DNA from: a virus | Length of the DNA stretch: 38,245 nucleotides | Reading direction: 5' to 3' (one strand) | IMG/VR virus record: IMGVR_UViG_3300027980_000020 | Span: 1 to 38,245 of that record | Part shown: positions 1 to 37,551 of the stretch, in pieces | Layout of the letters: every line of letters begins with the position of its first letter | Numbering within the stretch: position 1 is the first letter of the stretch | Notes under the pieces: model-generated | What the model was told of the DNA's origin: nothing | The model's input: the letters and a program-made list of their open reading frames with translations, nothing else | Database searches by the model: none | Made by a program: the position numbers and the translations under genes

Positions 1-127
1 AAAAAAAAATATTGTGAAATTTGTAAATGCAAATTCACGCCAAGAAATAAATTACAAGTTTTGTGCGGGAAAACATCCTGCAAAAAGAAAAGGGCCAAGT
101 TGAAGGCAAAAGAGCTTTCAGACAGTG
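1..127. repeat. Terminal direct repeat, left copy
   Basis: Bases 1-127 are identical to bases 38119-38245. The copy starts with nine A residues and ends in CAGACAGTG. The reading frame of a zinc-finger gene continues exactly across the joined ends, so the contig closes into a circle. A length of 127 bp equals a common maximum assembler k-mer, so this is most simply an assembly overlap from a circular or circularly permuted molecule and not a biological terminal repeat. Confidence 0.95.
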
Positions 128-408
128 AATACCCGATGGAGAGGCGGTGTTCTATTTGTAATGAAAAGTTCATTTCAAAGGGACCCAAAAACCATATTTG
201 TAGCAATGAAGATTGCAAATACAAAAACGGGTTGCGTCTTAGAAGAGAGTCTGGTAGACGTAATAAGAACAAGGAGAAGAAAAAGCCGGGACAACACAAC
301 GAACCGGTTATGTGGGATTGGAAAAAATTTGGTGACCCATATAAAGAGATTACAGCCCCATTATCTGGGCTTCCAGGTCGTCACGCTCAGTTCCACCCAA
401 TGTCTTAA
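1..408 (+). CDS. Zinc-finger protein, C-terminal part (gene wraps the contig ends)
   Basis: Bases 1-408 continue, in frame, the gene that starts at 37975. Joined across the circle it encodes about 183 aa. The protein has three cysteine clusters with a similar layout: two Cys, a basic loop, then two more Cys or Cys/His. They begin near residues 6, 53 and 97. Two of them show a clear C-x2-C start (CEIC and CSIC). This suggests three tandem zinc-binding modules, probably for nucleic acid or protein contact. The tail is Lys/Arg-rich and then ends in an uncharged stretch. The enzyme class is unknown. It is the last gene of a stop/start-coupled run beginning at 37402. An isolated start at 61 would be an artefact of the cut. 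Confidence 0.85.
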   Translation, partial: KKKYCEICKCKFTPRNKLQVLCGKTSCKKKRAKLKAKELSDSEYPMERRCSICNEKFISKGPKNHICSNEDCKYKNGLRLRRESGRRNKNKEKKKPGQHNEPVMWDWKKFGDPYKEITAPLSGLPGRHAQFHPMS

Positions 409-2251: not shown

Positions 2252-2590
2252 ATGATCGAGATTTGCAATATCAGAAATGGACACCCGACAGAGGCATACG
2301 ATTTTTACATTGATCGTCGCTCACCAGTTGGCAATCCGTTCCCCATGAAGAAAGAGGCGCAACGCGACATTGTGTGTGACGCCTACGAGGAACACTTCGC
2401 CAGAATGGTCAAGCTCGGCAACCATGAATTTGTCGGCTACCTGACCACCATGAGCAAAGCCCTTGAGATTCACGGCAAGGTACGCCTGTTTTGCTGGTGC
2501 GCCCCCAAGCGTTGCCATGGCGAAATGATCAAGCAGTATCTTGAGTCAAATACGCCGTCTCATTCAAAAGAAGTGGGCAACAATGAGTAA
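2252..2590 (+). CDS. DUF4326 domain protein
   Basis: A 112-aa protein with the DUF4326 signature: an N-terminal NIRNGHPTEAYDFYIDR segment, then RSPVGNPFPMK, and a C-terminal LFCWCAPKRCHGEMIKQYLE with clustered Cys and His. The family is common in phages and plasmids and its chemistry is unknown. The Cys-His cluster could bind a metal or be catalytic. GGAGGAATAATC precedes the ATG. Its last 8 bp overlap the start of the PAPS-reductase-like gene, so the two are probably translated together. Confidence 0.88.
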   Translation: MIEICNIRNGHPTEAYDFYIDRRSPVGNPFPMKKEAQRDIVCDAYEEHFARMVKLGNHEFVGYLTTMSKALEIHGKVRLFCWCAPKRCHGEMIKQYLESNTPSHSKEVGNNE

Positions 2591-3347
2591 AACGCACGTA
2601 GTTATGTTTTCAGGGGGTAAGGATTCCCTCGCTCAACTCATCGTCATGATGCAGCGCAAAGAGCCTATCCACTCTGTTGTGAATGTTGATGTGGGGTGGG
2701 AGTTCCCGTGGATGTACGACCATATAAACAAGGTTGCTGCCATGTTGGAAAGCAAGGGGATCAAGTTCGTCCGCTTCAATATCGCTGACAAGATTCGATA
2801 CCTCATGTTTAAGCATGCCGTTTTTGGGCGTGACGAGCCATACAAAGGCAAGCTGCGTTACTTCGGCAAAGGATGGCCCGGCCCCGGTCGCCGCTGGTGT
2901 ACCCGCGAGAAAAACGAACTCAAGGACAAGTACATCAAATCCATTGATGGGGCTGTGTCCTGCATCGGCTTTGCCGCCGACGAAGCGCACCGCGCCGAAT
3001 CGAAGAACCTAAAAAAGCAGCCCTATGATGTGCGGTTCCCGCTCATTGAGGAGGGATTAACCGAAGTCGACGCCCTCGCGCTCTGTCGTGAGCATGGATA
3101 CTACCCCAAAGGCGGCTCCCCTTACGATCACTTCCGGCGGGTGTCCTGCTTTTGCTGCCCACTCCAACCGATCGAAGAATTGCGGGCCTTGCGCGTCAAC
3201 TATCCCAACGAATGGGCGATAATGCTCAAGTGGGACAAGCTCATGCCGAGCATCAATAAGCCTTTCAAGGCCGGGGAAACCGTCCATGATCTGGACGCAC
3301 GTTTTGAGTACGAAGCAAGCATGATGGGGCATTGCCATGTGGCGTAA
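2583..3347 (+). CDS. PAPS reductase / adenine nucleotide alpha-hydrolase family protein
   Basis: A 254-aa protein with a perfect PP-loop SGGKDS at residues 10-15, which binds the pyrophosphate of ATP or PAPS. Also visible are a GRRWCTREKNELK segment near residues 101-113 and a Cys-rich RRVSCFCCPLQP segment near 185-196 that may carry a metal or thiol centre. Family members reduce PAPS or activate sulfur or bases for modification (DndC is one relative). The phage members are mostly uncharacterised. The ATG at 2583 begins the PP-loop domain; the upstream in-frame extension lies within DUF4326. The substrate is unknown. Confidence 0.88.
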   Translation: MSKTHVVMFSGGKDSLAQLIVMMQRKEPIHSVVNVDVGWEFPWMYDHINKVAAMLESKGIKFVRFNIADKIRYLMFKHAVFGRDEPYKGKLRYFGKGWPGPGRRWCTREKNELKDKYIKSIDGAVSCIGFAADEAHRAESKNLKKQPYDVRFPLIEEGLTEVDALALCREHGYYPKGGSPYDHFRRVSCFCCPLQPIEELRALRVNYPNEWAIMLKWDKLMPSINKPFKAGETVHDLDARFEYEASMMGHCHVA

Positions 3348-3456
3348 GATCAAAGATTTTTTCATCCGTAACCTTTGGAACGGGTGCCACGGCTGCAAGC
3401 ATAGCGTTGACAACAAGCGCGGCCCTAATTGTTCCGCATGGTGCGGGTTTATCTAA
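3337..3456 (+). CDS. 39-aa cysteine knuckle protein
   Basis: A short gene of 39 aa that overlaps the end of the PAPS-reductase-like gene by 11 bp. GGGG lies 8 nt upstream of the ATG. The N-terminus is basic (MWRKIKDFF), followed by NGCHGCKHS and later NCSAWCGF. Two CxxC-type pairs about 11 residues apart suggest a single zinc knuckle. The layout resembles the N-terminus of the next gene (CHKC), so the two may be related. Function unknown. Confidence 0.6.
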   Translation: MWRKIKDFFIRNLWNGCHGCKHSVDNKRGPNCSAWCGFI

Positions 3457-3478
3457 ACTGTTCAGCAGGACTATGAAC

Positions 3479-3760
3479 ATGAAGAAAAAAGCACACCCCC
3501 GCTCTTGCCACAAGTGCCGTTATCTCGGTTCAGAGAGTGACGGGAACTATCCTGAGTTCGCGCAGAGTTGGCCGTCTTGCAACAAGGTGGAAAGCTACCA
3601 ATATCTCAGGTCGTTTCCATTCAAAAAGCGGATGCCGTGTTTTCGCAATCGACTGCGCATGTACTACGGACGTACCGGATGGTTTGAAGGCGGCGTGTAC
3701 ACGGGCCGGGACAACCAGGACAAGGGAAATAAGTGCATCCGTGGGTTGATCCACGAATAA
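3479..3760 (+). CDS. Small basic zinc-knuckle protein (93 aa)
   Basis: A 93-aa basic protein with CHKCRYLG at its N-terminus, then single cysteines near residues 33, 53 and 86. It is Tyr/Arg-rich in the middle. The chosen ATG (3479) lies 8 nt after AGGA; an ATG six bases earlier sits too close to the same site. It is part of the early run of Cys-rich mini-proteins. I do not recognise a family. Its stop codon begins a repeated 30-nt intergenic leader that also precedes genes at 4033 and 5889. Confidence 0.7.
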   Translation: MKKKAHPRSCHKCRYLGSESDGNYPEFAQSWPSCNKVESYQYLRSFPFKKRMPCFRNRLRMYYGRTGWFEGGVYTGRDNQDKGNKCIRGLIHE

Positions 3761-3789
3761 CCACTAATCCGCAATGAGGTGATGAAATG
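3758..3789 (+). repeat. Repeated intergenic leader, copy 1
   Basis: From a TAA stop to the next ATG the sequence reads TAACCACTAAT, a short variable part, then TGAGGTGATGAA before the start. Copies at 4003-4035 and 5862-5891 share both the TAACC(A/G)C opening and the GAGGTG core at the same spacing. The core is a strong Shine-Dalgarno sequence, but the similarity extends to the stop codon. This suggests duplication of a leader cassette, or a shared translation or processing signal. Confidence 0.7.
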
Positions 3790-4005
3790 AAAGGGATCAT
3801 GAGTGAAATTCTGGAGGCCACCGCCACGGGCGGTTCCGACAGTAGCTCGACGGCTGTTTATCTCGGCCACGTCCAGCACCTTGCTTTGATTGAAGCGCTG
3901 GCTAGAGGAGAAGACGATCATGTCTCAAAAGTCGATGATGCGTGTTTCTTCGATGGGATCGAAATAATCCCTGTCGAAAAAGACAATTATCTCCGAGTCA
4001 TTTAA
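3787..4005 (+). CDS. Small hypothetical protein (72 aa)
   Basis: A 72-aa acidic protein with no recognised domain. A Ser/Thr/Gly-rich stretch lies at residues 12-22, a predicted helix follows, and the C-terminus looks like beta strand (IEIIPVEKDNYLRV). Translation is well supported by GAGGTGATGAA directly before the ATG. It lies between two copies of the intergenic leader, so it looks like one module in a series of interchangeable early genes. Function unknown. Confidence 0.7.
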   Translation: MKGIMSEILEATATGGSDSSSTAVYLGHVQHLALIEALARGEDDHVSKVDDACFFDGIEIIPVEKDNYLRVI

Positions 4006-6315: not shown

Positions 6316-6394
6316 CAAATTTATCCCCTCCCCATCGGGTTCCCCGGTGCCTTGTCAAAATATGGGCAAGCATCGGGAACCCGGCCTCGCGTGA
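6308..6394 (+). CDS. Doubtful 28-aa ORF over a long hairpin
   Basis: A 28-aa frame overlapping the previous gene by 8 bp, rich in Pro, Ser and Gly. Most of it lies inside the long inverted repeat at 6336-6383. The base composition can be explained by the hairpin rather than by coding constraint, and there is no clear ribosome site. I keep it only as a possibility. Confidence 0.2.
   Translation: MSSKFIPSPSGSPVPCQNMGKHREPGLA
6336..6383 (+). terminator. Long hairpin at the end of the early operon
   Basis: CGGGTTCC at 6336-6343 pairs with GGAACCCG at 6376-6383, CGGTG (6345-6349) with CATCG (6371-6375), and CTTG (6351-6354) with CAAG (6367-6370). That is 17 pairs with two single-C bulges and a 12-nt loop. 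No T-tract follows on either strand, so it is not a classical intrinsic terminator. It lies where the two transcription arms converge and could pause polymerase or protect the 3' end. A second, GC-only hairpin (CCCCGG/CCGGGG) follows at 6486-6503. Confidence 0.55.
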
Positions 6395-6531
6395 GTTGTC
6401 GCCGGGACAATCCCGACAGAAAAAACATAAGCGAAACGAAAACTGAAGTATAGCCCTGAACCGCCGCGCCCTGGCTTTAAACTCCCCCCGGATTGGGCCG
6501 GGGTGCGGCAATAAACCAAATAGGACTGATA

Positions 6532-6633
6532 ATGCTACCGATCAAAGGACCATTTTTCACCCGCCAGAAAGCCGCGTCATATTGCGGCGTTTCTGCTCGT
6601 GAATTTGATCGGTGGCGCCTGCGGCGTGTTTGA
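6532..6633 (+). CDS. Short (possibly truncated) helix-turn-helix protein
   Basis: A 33-aa product with AGGA 7 nt before the ATG. The sequence IKGPFFTRQKAASYCGVSA then FDRW matches the first helix-turn-helix of AlpA/excisionase-like regulators (A-A-x-Y-C-G-V-S-x-x-x-F-x-R-W). Such proteins are usually 60-80 aa; here a TGA follows directly after the recognition helix, so the wing is missing. The 3' half lies on the opposite strand of the duplicated tail-fibre ORF (6557-6922). Truncation by insertion of that segment is the likely explanation. Confidence 0.55.
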   Translation: MLPIKGPFFTRQKAASYCGVSAREFDRWRLRRV

Positions 6634-6922
6634 GGGTGACCGCTCTTAATGCATTCTCACAGCGCAAAATAACAAGCCGCCCGTCTGGGTGGTTGGTCAC
6701 TTCAAGTGTGTTAAGCGTGTCGGCAGGGGTGTCGCTTTCCGTGTCAACAGAATGGAACGCACCCGTCGGCGTAATCACGCCAGAACTGATGGTCAACTCA
6801 GTTATTGGCGCACCGCCGACAGACTCAGTCAGGACAGCGAGAATCGGGCTAAAAAGCCCACTTTTCAGCGCGCCTTCGTTTCGGGGCGAGTCAAGATAAG
6901 ATTGAAATGGTATGCTTGTCAT
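6557..6922 (-). CDS. Tail-fibre domain paralogue (121 aa)
   Basis: A 121-aa protein. Residues 36-104 align with residues 57-124 of the tail-fibre protein at 7125-8633: both have GGAP, a TISSGxITP strand, a DTE..(A/S).DTL(N/D)T stretch, then DG.(L/I)(V/I)ILR and a final strand. The first 35 residues differ. It lies two genes downstream of the fibre on the same strand, so it is a duplicated or shuffled fibre domain, possibly a fibre subunit or an inactive remnant. The end of the ORF has a strong hairpin (CAGAAA/TTTCTG arms). It overlaps a short HTH gene on the other strand. Confidence 0.6.
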   Translation of the reverse strand: MTSIPFQSYLDSPRNEGALKSGLFSPILAVLTESVGGAPITELTISSGVITPTGAFHSVDTESDTPADTLNTLEVTNHPDGRLVILRCENALRAVTLKHAAGATDQIHEQKRRNMTRLSGG

Positions 6923-6924
6923 GG

Positions 6925-7113
6925 CTATTTACCGGTCTGTTCGGTTGCTTCTGGGTCAACATATTCTTCGACCGGTGTGCCGGCTTGAATGGCCTCTTCA
7001 ATTTCAGCAAACCAACGGTGTTCCTTGCTGGCTGACCGGAACTCTCCTGTCTCAGACACAATAGCTGATAAATCTGTTTTATCTTCGTTTTGCCATTTAA
7101 TTTCAGTATACAT
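6925..7113 (-). CDS. Small tail-fibre-associated protein (62 aa)
   Basis: A 62-aa acidic protein with a TEIKW strand at the N-terminus, a helical W-containing middle and a Gly-Thr-Pro-acidic tail (QAGTPVEEYVDPEA). Short proteins of this make-up commonly follow phage fibre genes and are thought to be fibre assembly or accessory proteins. A GGGGGGG run 3-5 nt before the ATG serves as ribosome site. It lies between the main fibre and its small paralogue. The assignment rests on position and composition only. Confidence 0.55.
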   Translation of the reverse strand: MYTEIKWQNEDKTDLSAIVSETGEFRSASKEHRWFAEIEEAIQAGTPVEEYVDPEATEQTGK

Positions 7114-15365: not shown

Positions 15366-15901
15366 ACTTCAACCTTGCTGTATGGACTGTGATTATAAAA
15401 TTTTACACCGCACGACTTCATATCATTGATTGCCCTATTCATCGTCGAGAGCATTTGCGGCTCTTTCCTTTCCCTAAAATAATGCCCACTCTTATTTTTA
15501 TTATAAAAATAGATATATCCGTCAGGACTTGGAGAAAAATCTATTCCAATGAGGTGGATTTCAGAACAGCCCATTTGGAATGCAGCAGTTATGGCCGTCA
15601 AACCTATCGTGTTAATGCTCAAACAACCAGTCTTGAACATGTCGACCTTATTTGCTCGCCTGTTCCAGTCAAACCAGATACGTTTACCGGCGTGGCACAT
15701 ACTGTCTTGGATAGTGTAAATGTTGAAATAATATGTAGGATCATCAAACCAATATCTGATTCTGTTCACCCCGTATGTGGGGCCATCCCACCCGTAATAG
15801 AACCCTGGGTCCTTTTCGCGGATGGAATAGCCATTCCCACATACTAGGGCCTTTTCACCCTTGTGCAGGTCTACATAGCTGCCAAAGGTGACATTCTTCA
15901 T
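15362..15901 (-). CDS. DUF115 / sialyltransferase-like protein in the head operon
   Basis: A 179-aa protein with a nucleotide-binding-like start, KALVCGNGYSI, at residues 17-27. A later block (TGCLSINTIGLTAITAAF, then a GCSEIHLIGIDFS strand) matches the DUF115/MptE-like and CST-type sialyltransferase Rossmann pattern. Such proteins transfer sugars or pyrophosphate groups. It is shorter than most bacterial members. It lies between the head protein and the adaptor with a 3-nt gap and a 4-nt overlap, so it is coexpressed with virion genes. It could glycosylate a capsid protein or host surface. The activity is inferred. Confidence 0.65.
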   Translation of the reverse strand: MKNVTFGSYVDLHKGEKALVCGNGYSIREKDPGFYYGWDGPTYGVNRIRYWFDDPTYYFNIYTIQDSMCHAGKRIWFDWNRRANKVDMFKTGCLSINTIGLTAITAAFQMGCSEIHLIGIDFSPSPDGYIYFYNKNKSGHYFRERKEPQMLSTMNRAINDMKSCGVKFYNHSPYSKVEV

Positions 15902-26415: not shown

Positions 26416-26491
26416 TGGAGCCAGCGGGACGACTTGAACGCCCTGCCTGGTGGTTACAAAGCACCGGCTCTACCTGATGAGCTACACTGGC
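26416..26491 (-). tRNA. tRNA-Thr (anticodon UGU)
   Basis: A 76-nt cloverleaf with encoded CCA. Acceptor GCCAGTG pairs with CGCTGGC (one T-G), the D-stem is GCTC/GAGC, and the loop has GG. The anticodon stem is GGTGC/CCACC with a C-C mismatch at the closing pair and loop TTTGTAA (anticodon TGT). The T-stem is GGGCG/CGTCC with a TTCAAGT loop. The discriminator is T. It reads ACA codons. It begins directly after a T-tract of a hairpin on the same strand. The mismatch is slightly unusual but the rest is canonical. Confidence 0.93.
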
Positions 26492-35405: not shown

Positions 35406-36019
35406 TACTGTAACTCCTTAATACGTTTTATTGTTTCCGCCAAATCTACGGCGAAGCGTTCAAGTTCATTGCTCAACTTTTCAATAAAGGTTTCGTCTCT
35501 AGTAACACGAACAATGAGCGCAGGCAATCCCGGGTTGAAAAACGACACAAAATCCCACCACTCACGGCCAGTGATAAACATTGACCCTTGGACCTGTTGA
35601 TAATATTTAGTCGGCAATACTCCTTTGAAAAGATATTCAAGATGAGTGTGGATTTTAGGGCATTTAATTTCAACTCCGCCTTCATCACCCACAAGTCCGT
35701 CGGGAGAACATGAAAACAGCTTTCTCGCGTCGTGATAACAAAGCGCTACCTCTTTAACGTCAACGTCGTTCATAAACTCGTAATAACGCCGCGCTTCTGC
35801 TTCCATTTCCACCCCACGCTCCATGGCCGCGTTACTGTATCCTTCTGTCTTTTCGCCAATGATAGCTTCACCAGCAAGCTGATAGAGATACGCTTTGCGC
35901 TGTTTAGACGGCAGGCCCTTGCTTGTTACTATTTTATCGAAGCATGAGGCCGAAGGTATCCCGGATCGAGCCGCAAACCATTCTGGCGAACCCTGCTCAA
36001 AGTCTTCAATCGTTATCAT
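35405..36019 (-). CDS. YqaJ/lambda-type exonuclease
   Basis: A 204-aa 5'-3' exonuclease of the YqaJ/lambda Exo fold. Visible motifs are GSPEWFAARSGIPSAS, a Y-S-N-A-A-M-E-R-G-x-E-M-E segment, then SPDGLVGDEGGVEIKCPK (the D-x-n-E-x-K catalytic core), and YYQQVQGSMFITG. It resects DNA ends so that the annealing protein can pair strands. It lies between SSB and ERF genes with 1-bp overlaps, forming a compact recombination operon. Confidence 0.9.
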   Translation of the reverse strand: MITIEDFEQGSPEWFAARSGIPSASCFDKIVTSKGLPSKQRKAYLYQLAGEAIIGEKTEGYSNAAMERGVEMEAEARRYYEFMNDVDVKEVALCYHDARKLFSCSPDGLVGDEGGVEIKCPKIHTHLEYLFKGVLPTKYYQQVQGSMFITGREWWDFVSFFNPGLPALIVRVTRDETFIEKLSNELERFAVDLAETIKRIKELQ

Positions 36020-36594
36020 TACGCCCCCTTCTTAACCTTGGCCTTGATTGCCTTCCTGGCAGACTTGTAATCGTCGGCGGCAATGTTCTCAACACTGGTA
36101 GAGCCAAACAAGGCGCAAAATTTGGAAATGTCTGAGCCTGTTTCCTTCAAGGCGGCATTAAGGTTTTCGGCCTGTTCCTTTGAAATAGAAACAAGCCCGA
36201 TTGAATCGGCATCACGGTTGTCGTCAATCAGGAAAAGAGCATTGAGAGCGTATTTCCTTGCGTAGCTCGACGCCGCACCGGTCACTTGGCTTTCGTCCAT
36301 CCCCTTTTTAGAAAGAGGCTCACGCGCCCATCCATAGCAACTCTTAGTCTCTCCGGTTGAGCATGACACGGTTGCCGTAGCCTTTAAATAATAGCGTTCA
36401 CCGACAACAATAATTTCGTCTGTGAGTGTCAGCAGCAATCCAGAGGCCAGCAAGCTAGGCTTGAGTGCCTGGAGGATATCCTCACAAGTTCGATATGCGA
36501 ACCCGCCAAATTTGTTGTCTCTCATCTTTGGGGCTTTCAAGTCGTGTTGGACTTTGAGAAGCTTTTCATCAAGGGTGTGCGTGTTTTTTTCCAT
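36019..36594 (-). CDS. ERF-family single-strand annealing protein
   Basis: A 191-aa protein of the ERF superfamily (P22 Erf type). Signature parts are FGGFAYRTCEDILQALKPSL, a beta segment (YLKATATVSCSTGE), and a GAASSYARKYALNALFLI motif, followed by DDNRDADS. It binds single-stranded ends made by the exonuclease and anneals them, helping genome circularisation or concatemer formation. The N-terminal part is intact. It is the first gene of the leftward operon and follows a clear promoter. AAAGGAG lies before the ATG. Confidence 0.92.
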   Translation of the reverse strand: MEKNTHTLDEKLLKVQHDLKAPKMRDNKFGGFAYRTCEDILQALKPSLLASGLLLTLTDEIIVVGERYYLKATATVSCSTGETKSCYGWAREPLSKKGMDESQVTGAASSYARKYALNALFLIDDNRDADSIGLVSISKEQAENLNAALKETGSDISKFCALFGSTSVENIAADDYKSARKAIKAKVKKGA

Positions 36595-36619
36595 TTCTAC
36601 TCCTTTTGTTTTGTGCCAA

Positions 36620-36640
36620 GTTTATATATCCATTATAAAC
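36620..36640. promoter_or_regulatory. Palindromic operator candidate
   Basis: GTTTATA (36620-36626) and TATAAAC (36634-36640) form a perfect 7-bp inverted repeat with a 7-bp centre. It covers the -10 and spacer of the leftward promoter. A direct repeat (C)CAAGTTTA lies nearby at about 36617 and 36647. This is well placed for repression, though no repressor gene was identified. Confidence 0.55.
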
Positions 36641-36649
36641 AAAAATCAA
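36621..36649 (-). promoter_or_regulatory. Leftward promoter of the replication operon
   Basis: On the minus strand TTGATT (36649-36644), a 17-nt spacer, then TATAAA (36626-36621). The spacing is ideal for a sigma70-type promoter. The start site would be about 36612-36614, only about 15 nt before the AAGGAG and ATG of the ERF gene. An inverted repeat overlaps the -10 and spacer. Confidence 0.7.
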
Positions 36650-36673
36650 GTTTAAAATATTTCCAAAAAAAGG

Positions 36674-36703
36674 TTGACAGTATTGCGACGCTTATGATTA
36701 GAT
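36674..36703 (+). promoter_or_regulatory. Rightward promoter (extended -10)
   Basis: TTGACA (36674-36679), an 18-nt spacer, then TTAGAT (36698-36703), with TGA directly before it (extended -10). It faces away from the leftward promoter and would start transcription near 36710. Downstream on this strand are structured RNA elements and then the early genes from 37402. Confidence 0.65.
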
Positions 36704-36708
36704 CTATT

Positions 36709-36906
36709 CAACACGACAGCAAAACATCTACCACTGAAAGTGGATGTGTAAAAACTTGCTATTCATTTGACCGGCACCGTGTCGGTGGCAATCTACGGAC
36801 AGCCACAGCGGGCAACCGCAGGCAAAACGGGCAAGGTTCACATTTGGAACCTTTGATCCTCCTAGTCTCCTGCCTGGAGAGGTTAAACCCAGGCAACATT
36901 TTTTTG
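36709..36906 (+). ncRNA. Candidate structured RNA, first segment
   Basis: Between the rightward promoter and a terminator-like hairpin, about 200 nt hold consecutive stem-loops and no gene. The stems are ACAT..CCACT/AGTGG..ATGT (36724-36747), ACCGGCA/TGTCGGT (36770-36786), GTGGC/GCCAC (36785-36806, an alternative to the previous stem), GCGG-GCAA-CCGC with a GNRA loop (36808-36819), AAGGTTC/GAACCTT (36833-36853) and TGCCTGG/CCAGGCA (36871-36895). Their density is far above what coding DNA would show. Family unknown; a leader or a discrete sRNA are both possible. Confidence 0.55.
36871..36905 (+). terminator. Intrinsic terminator candidate
   Basis: A 7-bp stem TGCCTGG/CCAGGCA with an 11-nt loop, then ACA and seven T (36899-36905). 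It would end the first RNA segment. If active, it would separate the promoter from the downstream tRNA-like element and early genes, unless antitermination occurs. Confidence 0.6.
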
Positions 36907-36916
36907 ATCTTTGAAA
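36903..36916 (+). repeat. 14-bp direct repeat, left copy
   Basis: TTTGATCTTTGAAA, identical to 37131-37144. The two copies bracket the tRNA-like element and one hairpin. A related but shorter TTTGATC occurs at 36852-36858. Confidence 0.75.
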
Positions 36917-36920
36917 ATAT

Positions 36921-37056
36921 GGTGGGGACTCGCGGCTAGAGGCAATTCGAGAAAGGTTTGCAAACCTTGATAGGGAGTAGAAAACACACCTATTGGCGGC
37001 CTTTTTCTAGTGAGGGCTGACGGTGTGCGGAGGTTCAAATCCTCCCCCGACCACCA
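36921..37056 (+). ncRNA. tRNA-like element with encoded CCA (136 nt)
   Basis: GGTGGGG (36921-36927) pairs with CCCGACC (37046-37052) in six of seven positions, with a G-G mismatch at the fourth, followed by A and CCA (to 37056). A perfect T-arm GGAGG-TTCAAAT-CCTCC (37029-37045) and a D-like stem CTCG/CGAG (36929-36951) are present. A 16-nt perfect palindrome (36953-36968) stands at the anticodon arm with no normal 7-nt loop. A long extra arm CACACC/GGTGTG (36985-37027) joins the T-arm. It is not a canonical tRNA and lacks tmRNA hallmarks. It could be a tRNA mimic or remnant. Confidence 0.6.
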
Positions 37057-37062
37057 AATTTT

Positions 37063-37130
37063 GAGCGGTTGTGAAATGAAAGGCAGGACAGCAAGTCTGA
37101 TAGTCAGACTAACGTAAAAATCCACCGCTC
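37063..37130 (+). ncRNA. Structured RNA segment with nested hairpin
   Basis: GAGCGGT (37063-37069) pairs with ACCGCTC (37124-37130). Inside is a perfect AGTCTGA-TAG-TCAGACT hairpin (37094-37110). The outer stem ends directly before the second 14-bp direct repeat, making CCGCTCTTTGATC, which resembles boxA-type antitermination sequences of rRNA leaders. Confidence 0.5.
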
Positions 37131-37144
37131 TTTGATCTTTGAAA
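37131..37144 (+). repeat. 14-bp direct repeat, right copy
   Basis: TTTGATCTTTGAAA, identical to 36903-36916, 228 bp downstream. It directly follows the CCGCTC arm of a stem. Confidence 0.75.
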
Positions 37145-37190
37145 TTCGATTTCTCATGTGATCACACCAACCATTTGAGGTCTGTACATG

Positions 37191-37301
37191 CTCATCTTGA
37201 TTTCTGATTGGCTCCCCACAAAGAGCCAACGCAGAATGGATGAGGTTATCGCCGGACAGCCGCTGAGAACCGAAGGCGTTTGGAGCCTTTAAGGTCCGGC
37301 G
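37191..37301 (+). ncRNA. Structured RNA segment: two large stem-loops
   Basis: First structure: CTCATC (37191-37196) pairs with GATGAG (37239-37244), TTCTG (37202-37206) with CAGAA (37232-37236), and TTGGCTC (37208-37214) with GAGCCAA (37223-37229). That makes 18 pairs in three coaxial blocks. Second structure: CGCCGGAC (37250-37257) pairs with GTCCGGCG (37294-37301), enclosing AAGGC/GCCTT (37273-37289). No reading frame with a ribosome site runs through it. A perfect GGAGGTGATC lies just after (37311-37320). Confidence 0.55.
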
Positions 37302-37331
37302 GTTGGGCCGGGAGGTGATCTAATAGAAAAG

Positions 37332-37359
37332 GCGGGTGCCGCTTGGATTCGGCACCCGC
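37332..37359 (+). terminator. Strong GC hairpin before the early genes
   Basis: A perfect 10-bp stem GCGGGTGCCG/CGGCACCCGC with an 8-nt loop. It is not directly followed by a T-tract; seven T come 19 nt later (37379-37385). It may be the 3' end of the structured RNA, an RNA-processing site, or a weak terminator in front of the first early gene. Confidence 0.5.
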
Positions 37360-37401
37360 TATCACATGAGACATCGAGTTTTTTTAAAAAAAAAGGTAAA
37401 T

Positions 37402-37551
37402 ATGCCAAATGATGGACGTAAAGATAGGTCAACCGGAGAGGTTTTCTACCACGGACAGTGGTGGGATGCAGAAGCCTCTTACCGGGAGGAAGCTGAAAAA
37501 GTAGCGTGTGAGCGCAATCATTTTAACCGAGAAAATGAGGAGGAGTCATGA
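37402..37551 (+). CDS. Small acidic protein, first early gene (49 aa)
   Basis: A 49-aa protein (NDGRKDRSTGEVFYHGQWWD, then a Glu-rich helix). An A-rich leader with AAGG precedes the ATG; the in-frame extension to 37336 runs through the GC hairpin and is rejected. It overlaps the next gene by 4 bp (ATGA). No domain recognised. It is the first gene of the rightward early operon. Confidence 0.7.
   Translation: MPNDGRKDRSTGEVFYHGQWWDAEASYREEAEKVACERNHFNRENEEES

Follow-up and report, generated by a model that had tools for sequence, protein, structure and literature searches.

The noncoding RNA island of about 680 nt that opens one gene block of this phage is real, gene-free and structured. Along it, a boxA, a tRNA-like element, a second boxA, a long helix, a structured RNA and a U-tract follow one another in an order that resembles the spacer of an rRNA operon, which supports the reading that the island would be a boxA-protected, processed noncoding RNA or leader unit borrowing the control logic of the host's rRNA operons. 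We give this reading a probability of roughly 45%.

The window, i.e., the whole stretch of DNA analysed (38,245 nt), carries a 127-bp direct repeat at both ends, and it is therefore a complete circular phage genome. The island sits between two divergent blocks of genes. The leftward block starts with the gene of an Erf-like ssDNA annealing protein (36019 to 36594, minus strand; PHROG 155, E = 7e-39) and includes an exonuclease, an SSB and a DnaD-like loader. The rightward block is composed of small genes from 37402 onward, the first of which encodes 49 aa (37402 to 37551, plus strand; codon log-odds of 0.29). The sign of the GC skew flips at the island, hence a replication origin may lie nearby. 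The hosts are probably sulfate-reducing bacteria, and the boxA and tRNA-Tyr matches presented below point to the class Desulfobacteria. A protein with a PAPS-reductase domain (2541 to 3347, plus strand, in the rightward block; Pfam PF01507) possibly has a role in host sulfur metabolism or in DNA modification. Where the two blocks converge (6320 to 6540 and 6501 to 7000), strong structure and several GC-rich inverted repeats are found (z of -4.5 and MFE of -77 for 6501 to 6700 on the plus strand); these are probably terminators.

The original prediction held that the island contains no credible gene, and this is firmly borne out. The mean codon log-odds are near zero for the open reading frames at 36544 to 36939 (0.06) and 36883 to 37125 on the minus strand (0.08), compared with 0.23 to 0.37 for the adjoining real genes, and neither frame has a PHROG match. 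Dense structure on the rightward strand had also been claimed. Positions 36710 to 37387 have an MFE of -250.3 kcal/mol and, against dinucleotide shuffles, a z of -8.5 on the plus strand and -5.5 on the minus strand, so the rightward strand is indeed more structured than shuffled sequence, yet unevenly, with almost all of the excess in the last third (37141 to 37382: -112 kcal/mol, z of -8.4; 37142 to 37381 likewise yields -8.4). The 5' domain (z of -2.2) and the middle (z of -1.9) come close to what ordinary genes show, such as the Erf gene with -2.2. A genome-wide scan in 200-nt segments agrees, as the only outliers in the island are those starting at 37201 and 37301. Strong structure is also predicted in two coding stretches, 15701 to 15900 (minus strand, z of -5.0) and 101 to 300 (plus strand, z of -4.8). 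At least ten stems had been predicted, and this is true, since the fold has 15 helices that reach 5 bp or more with P above 0.8; given that shuffles present a mean of 9.0 and a maximum of 16, the stem count by itself is only modestly unusual.

Among the most telling parts of the island, which the original prediction missed, are two exact copies of an rRNA antitermination signal. The string TTTGATCTTTGAAA is a 14-nt perfect repeat with exactly two copies in the 38-kb genome, both on the plus strand and both in the island (boxA 1 at 36903 to 36916, boxA 2 at 37131 to 37144). Since a first phylum-wide boxA scan counted many matches outside rRNA operons, the counts given here were taken directly from 16S leaders in the class Desulfobacteria. 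Of 16 distinct rRNA loci, 15 carry GATCTTTGAAA about 90 to 120 nt upstream of 16S, and nine of those 15 have the full 14-mer; the lone exception, with the enterobacterial form of boxA, is a probable contaminant. The 14-mer occurs three times in a Desulfamplus genome, each time directly before 16S rRNA. Given this identity with Desulfobacteria 16S leaders at a conserved distance, the phage strings are firmly assigned as the rrn boxA of the host group. The island had been proposed to be a functional noncoding RNA, an elaborate leader, or both. That proposal is supported, because an rrn-type boxA is sensible only in a rightward RNA that is transcribed and for the most part left untranslated, and it is sharpened by the two boxA copies together with the tRNA-Tyr-derived element.

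That element (36921 to 37056, plus strand), identified by comparison with host tRNA-Tyr and by folding, starts directly after boxA 1 with the acceptor 5' strand GGTGGGG (36921 to 36927), the same as the start of the host tRNA-Tyr. Its 3' part, 37029 to 37056, reads GGAGG-TTCAAAT-CCTCC-CCCGACC-ACCA, comprising a T-arm that matches tRNA-Tyr (37029 to 37045), the acceptor 3' strand (37046 to 37052), which is one change from the host's CCCCACC, and ACCA (37053 to 37056). This C-to-G change produces a G4.G69 mismatch. The acceptor stem, T-arm and CCA of a tRNA-Tyr gene are thus all found, with one acceptor mismatch, whereas the D, anticodon and variable parts have been swapped for 101 nt. In an unconstrained fold, the acceptor closes in the tRNA register with an ACCA overhang, and the replaced 101 nt form other hairpins. 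Only the acceptor/T-arm minihelix has been kept from tRNA-Tyr, and it is this minihelix that RNase P and tRNA 3'-end enzymes recognise.

The identity of the kept parts is equally firm. A T-arm followed by CCA occurs twice in the genome, in this element and in the real tRNA-Thr, and in none of 200 random genomes. Of 117 Desulfobacteria genomes, 94 carry a 25-mer from the element's tRNA 3' half with one or two mismatches, and each of the 12 loci inspected proved to be a tRNA-Tyr(GTA) 3' end. The match to the tRNA-Tyr 3' end extends over 29 nt with one mismatch and could also be taken for an attP-type site. Such a reading is highly improbable, given that neither PHROGs nor Pfam found an integrase among the scanned proteins of the complete genome, all long ones included, and that the 5' acceptor strand is there as well, unlike in an attP.

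Because everything between the acceptor and the T-arm has been rewritten, no tRNA finder calls the element: neither ARAGORN nor RF00005 detected a GUA anticodon arm with a tRNA-sized body in the island. The rewritten middle has no significant similarity to tRNA-Tyr (283 of 2000 shuffles were as good). It includes a hairpin with the 7-nt loop UUCUAGU (36997 to 37019; helix P of 0.94), which ARAGORN reads as a CUA anticodon arm at a low threshold; the resulting model (88 nt, CUA anticodon, weak D-arm) is poor and we do not believe it. A role in amber suppression or recoding was rejected, as 10 of 40 genes use TAG as their normal stop, and so was an ordinary, intron-containing or tmRNA gene, for which ARAGORN finds nothing with introns or in its default tmRNA mode. 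Between the element and boxA 2 there is a further hairpin of 7 bp (37094 to 37110; helix P of 0.96).

With a middle that lacks tRNA-Tyr similarity and a G.G mismatch in the acceptor, the element is possibly a decayed gene. It would then be the remains of a captured host tRNA-Tyr gene beside an unrelated terminator or structured spacer, and the tRNA-like part would have no function. A fold z of only -1.9 agrees with this, as does the absence of the expanded form from the rest of IMG/VR, one near-identical contig aside: a pattern search for the element yielded 31 matches, 30 of which are ordinary tRNAs or chance and one of which is that contig. Neutral decay, however, is not expected to leave the acceptor 5' strand, the full T-arm and the CCA intact while changing the rest fully, nor does it fit the two perfect boxA copies that flank the element. 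We therefore consider a functionless relic unlikely.

An anti-defence role was also considered, in which the element would be a tRNA-Tyr decoy that Septu/PtuAB or retron-Eco7 nucleases bind or cut in place of the host tRNA, sparing translation. According to passages of PMC11555353 and PMC13096335, Septu and retron-Eco7 cut the variable loop of tRNA-Tyr, and phage tRNA-Tyr counteracts this. The acceptor and T-arm are specific to tRNA-Tyr, and Microbacterium phages repeatedly carry tRNA-like elements with a defective anticodon, both of which are in line with a decoy. Such a role is nevertheless quite unlikely, since the known counter-defence elements are functional tRNAs, complete where the island element has no recognisable anticodon arm in place, and the loop that is cleaved is missing here; what the two share is their derivation from tRNA-Tyr.

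The 3' domain accounts for most of the structure. It is closed by a predicted long-range helix of 21 bp, firm in the fold (10 and 11 bp, P of 0.96 to 0.98), whose 5' arm (37141 to 37162) begins within boxA 2, so that the last 4 nt of the boxA double as the start of the helix. The 3' arm (37361 to 37382) runs into a T7 tract (37379 to 37385), which gives 37361 to 37385 the look of a terminator; the tract ends 16 nt before the first rightward start codon. The structured core between the arms comprises 198 nt (37163 to 37360; MFE of -87.1, z of -4.65), with branches at 37191 to 37244, 37245 to 37319 and 37331 to 37360 and helix P of 0.88 to 1.00. A single-sequence covariance model of the core recovered no sequence but its own from 64 sources, and 395 Desulfobacterota genomes gave no match. 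The Rfam search proposed along with the original prediction was run and no family fits the island, neither at gathering thresholds nor at E ≤ 5. A known RNA family was hence rejected, the lead towards GOLLD or ROOL is dropped, and the 3' domain is, as far as sequence comparison can tell, unlike any known RNA family. The associated lead, proximity to tRNA genes, fares no better, as the sole standard tRNA gene (tRNA-Thr, 26416 to 26491) is 10 kb from the island.

The same arrangement could be that of a cis-acting attenuator or antiterminator leader only, whose RNA would have no role of its own. Polymerase modified at boxA, or NusB-S10 bound to boxA 2, would then set termination at the closing helix and U-tract. 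The T7 tract comes directly after the closing helix and a short distance ahead of the first start codon, and a second terminator-like hairpin stands ahead of boxA 1. Given the 4-nt overlap, and given that the AAA of boxA can pair with the U-tract, occupancy of boxA 2 and formation of the helix base would be mutually exclusive. Such a leader, however, needs neither the 198-nt structured loop nor the tRNA-Tyr acceptor and T-arm. Moreover, a passage of PMC10250234 describes rrn-type boxA as acting mainly against Rho, and nut-type resistance to intrinsic terminators as involving N. No compact boxB-like hairpin was found in the sequence after either boxA copy, and no N-like gene was identified in the genome, where many small ORFs lack an assignment. 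On balance, a purely cis-acting leader is doubtful.

The 5' end of the island is less convincing. Regarding the rightward promoter that had been predicted, a perfect -35 box TTGACA is present at 36674 to 36679, but there is no good -10 box at 16 to 18 nt, and the site is absent from a consensus scan. The -10 candidates are TATGAT at 13 nt and the weak TTAGAT at 18 nt (36698 to 36703, preceded by TGn); with the latter, the candidate promoter spans 36674 to 36703. It is followed by a 5' structured domain (36710 to 36895, plus strand; z of -2.2 to -2.7) with hairpins at 36724 to 36747, 36835 to 36851 and 36871 to 36895 (helix P of 0.94 to 0.98). The last of these is the terminator-like hairpin mentioned above, TGCCTGG/CCAGGCA with a T7 tract 3 nt later (36871 to 36905; helix P of 0.97). 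The poor -10 box is thus a caveat to our reading, and so is the near-chance level of structure outside the 3' domain.

Under the preferred reading of a boxA-protected, processed unit, RNA polymerase would start near 36710 and produce an untranslated RNA of about 680 nt. By analogy with rRNA operons, the two host-type boxA copies would recruit the host NusB-S10 (Nus) complex, which would shield this RNA from Rho. The tRNA-Tyr minihelix would offer a substrate-like signal to RNase P and to tRNA 3' processing, and it would therefore be excised, parting the 5' RNA from the 3' domain. Spacer tRNAs of rrn operons are likewise cut out, separating the RNAs on either side. The complex on boxA 2 may hold the 5' arm of the closing helix until the 3' arm emerges, as in rRNA leader-trailer helices, whose formation boxA tethering is proposed to promote in a passage of PMC10250234. 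The 3' domain would then persist as a compact RNA whose end is set by the closing helix and U-tract, acting as terminator or processing site, and read-through would feed the rightward genes. A role for the released RNA is more speculative. With two boxA copies, altered tRNA-Tyr ends and a folded domain that resembles no known RNA family, the island may imitate, on a small scale, the apparatus of rRNA production: the phage would use host boxA and the tRNA-Tyr minihelix for the transcription, folding and release of a new compact RNA when infection begins, and might also titrate host Nus or tRNA-Tyr machinery. We regard this extension as rather unlikely.

The evidence comes from one phage species, and the searches found no homologue of the island beyond one near-identical contig. 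This contig, IMGVR_UViG_3300006467_000221, is a partial copy with about 99.8 to 99.9% identity and one substitution across 840 nt around the island, an A/G SNP at 37371 in the internal loop of the closing helix. When relatives were sought through the Erf, portal and rightward proteins, the candidates were either 99.9% identical or lacked the island.

A scan for double boxA yielded ten matches: eight in coding or repeat sequence, the near-identical contig, and one informative case, phage IMGVR_UViG_3300028840_006907 (469,617 bp). At 3240 to 3880 (plus strand), this phage has three tandem units that resemble circularly permuted tRNA genes, in the order T-arm and 3' acceptor, hairpin, then 5' acceptor, D-arm and anticodon arm, and the boxA of our window precedes two of the three. 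Their conserved flanks are TYCTAAC.....GGGCTTACAA and ACGCTCTTTTAACTT; elsewhere in IMG/VR, the flank motif was found solely in coding sequence. ARAGORN calls none of the three units as encoded and, after rotation, only the third, with an intron. A T-arm match in Microbacterium phages was also followed up, and chance convergence was rejected, as it is a further tRNA-like element with an aberrant anticodon arm. It lies between the gene of an ssDNA-binding protein and the next small gene (L083, 918 to 1029; L191; L223; L187 and L188, near 358 to 433; L189, near 357 to 440). The acceptor and T-arm are intact, the anticodon arm has a 6-nt loop, no loop or a 43-nt insert, and the depositors' labels are tRNA-Tyr(ata), tRNA-OTHER or none.

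In comparison with known systems, the island is like a bacterial rRNA operon leader or spacer: the exact boxA of the host is present in two copies, the second of them preceded by a tRNA-derived element, and a boxA stands immediately 5' of a long-range helix around a structured RNA. In E. coli, as described in part of PMC10250234, rrn operons have a further boxA ahead of 23S, and NusB and S10 are recruited by boxA. Unlike an rRNA operon, the island has no rRNA, retains only the acceptor and T-arm of a tRNA, and is carried by a phage, where it opens a block of genes. Lambdoid nut sites also have a boxA in an untranslated phage leader, but the island's boxA is of the rrn type, no boxB follows it directly and an N gene was not identified. 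Like the island, the GOLLD and ROOL families are large ornate phage RNAs associated with tRNAs, but the island does not match their Rfam models. Viral tRNA-like structures and the tRNA-like domain of tmRNA share the minihelix with CCA and a replaced remainder, although the former stand at a genome 3' end and the island element is inside a phage leader; for tmRNA, there was no ARAGORN call, and the 3'-end match reaches only 9.6 bits against an 84-bit cut-off. RtT RNA (RF00391, from the E. coli tyrT operon) is a noncoding RNA with a tRNA-Tyr 3' end, and its model scores 13.9 bits over 37013 to 37056 against a 45-bit cut-off, the similarity being limited to the tRNA end. HDV-like theta ribozymes adjoin phage tRNAs, according to part of PMC10879173, and no Rfam ribozyme family matched in the island. 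By analogy, the closest working likeness would be rrn antitermination and processing and, for the element, tRNA-like structures that keep only the acceptor and T-arm.

These results indicate that parts of stable RNAs escape annotation, given that ARAGORN and Rfam are blind to the element and to the anticodon-defective elements of the Microbacterium phages. Phage boxA is known mainly from lambdoid nut sites, which need a phage protein. Two exact host rrn boxA copies around a tRNA-derived minihelix suggest that phages may plug a noncoding RNA directly into the pathway of rRNA production.
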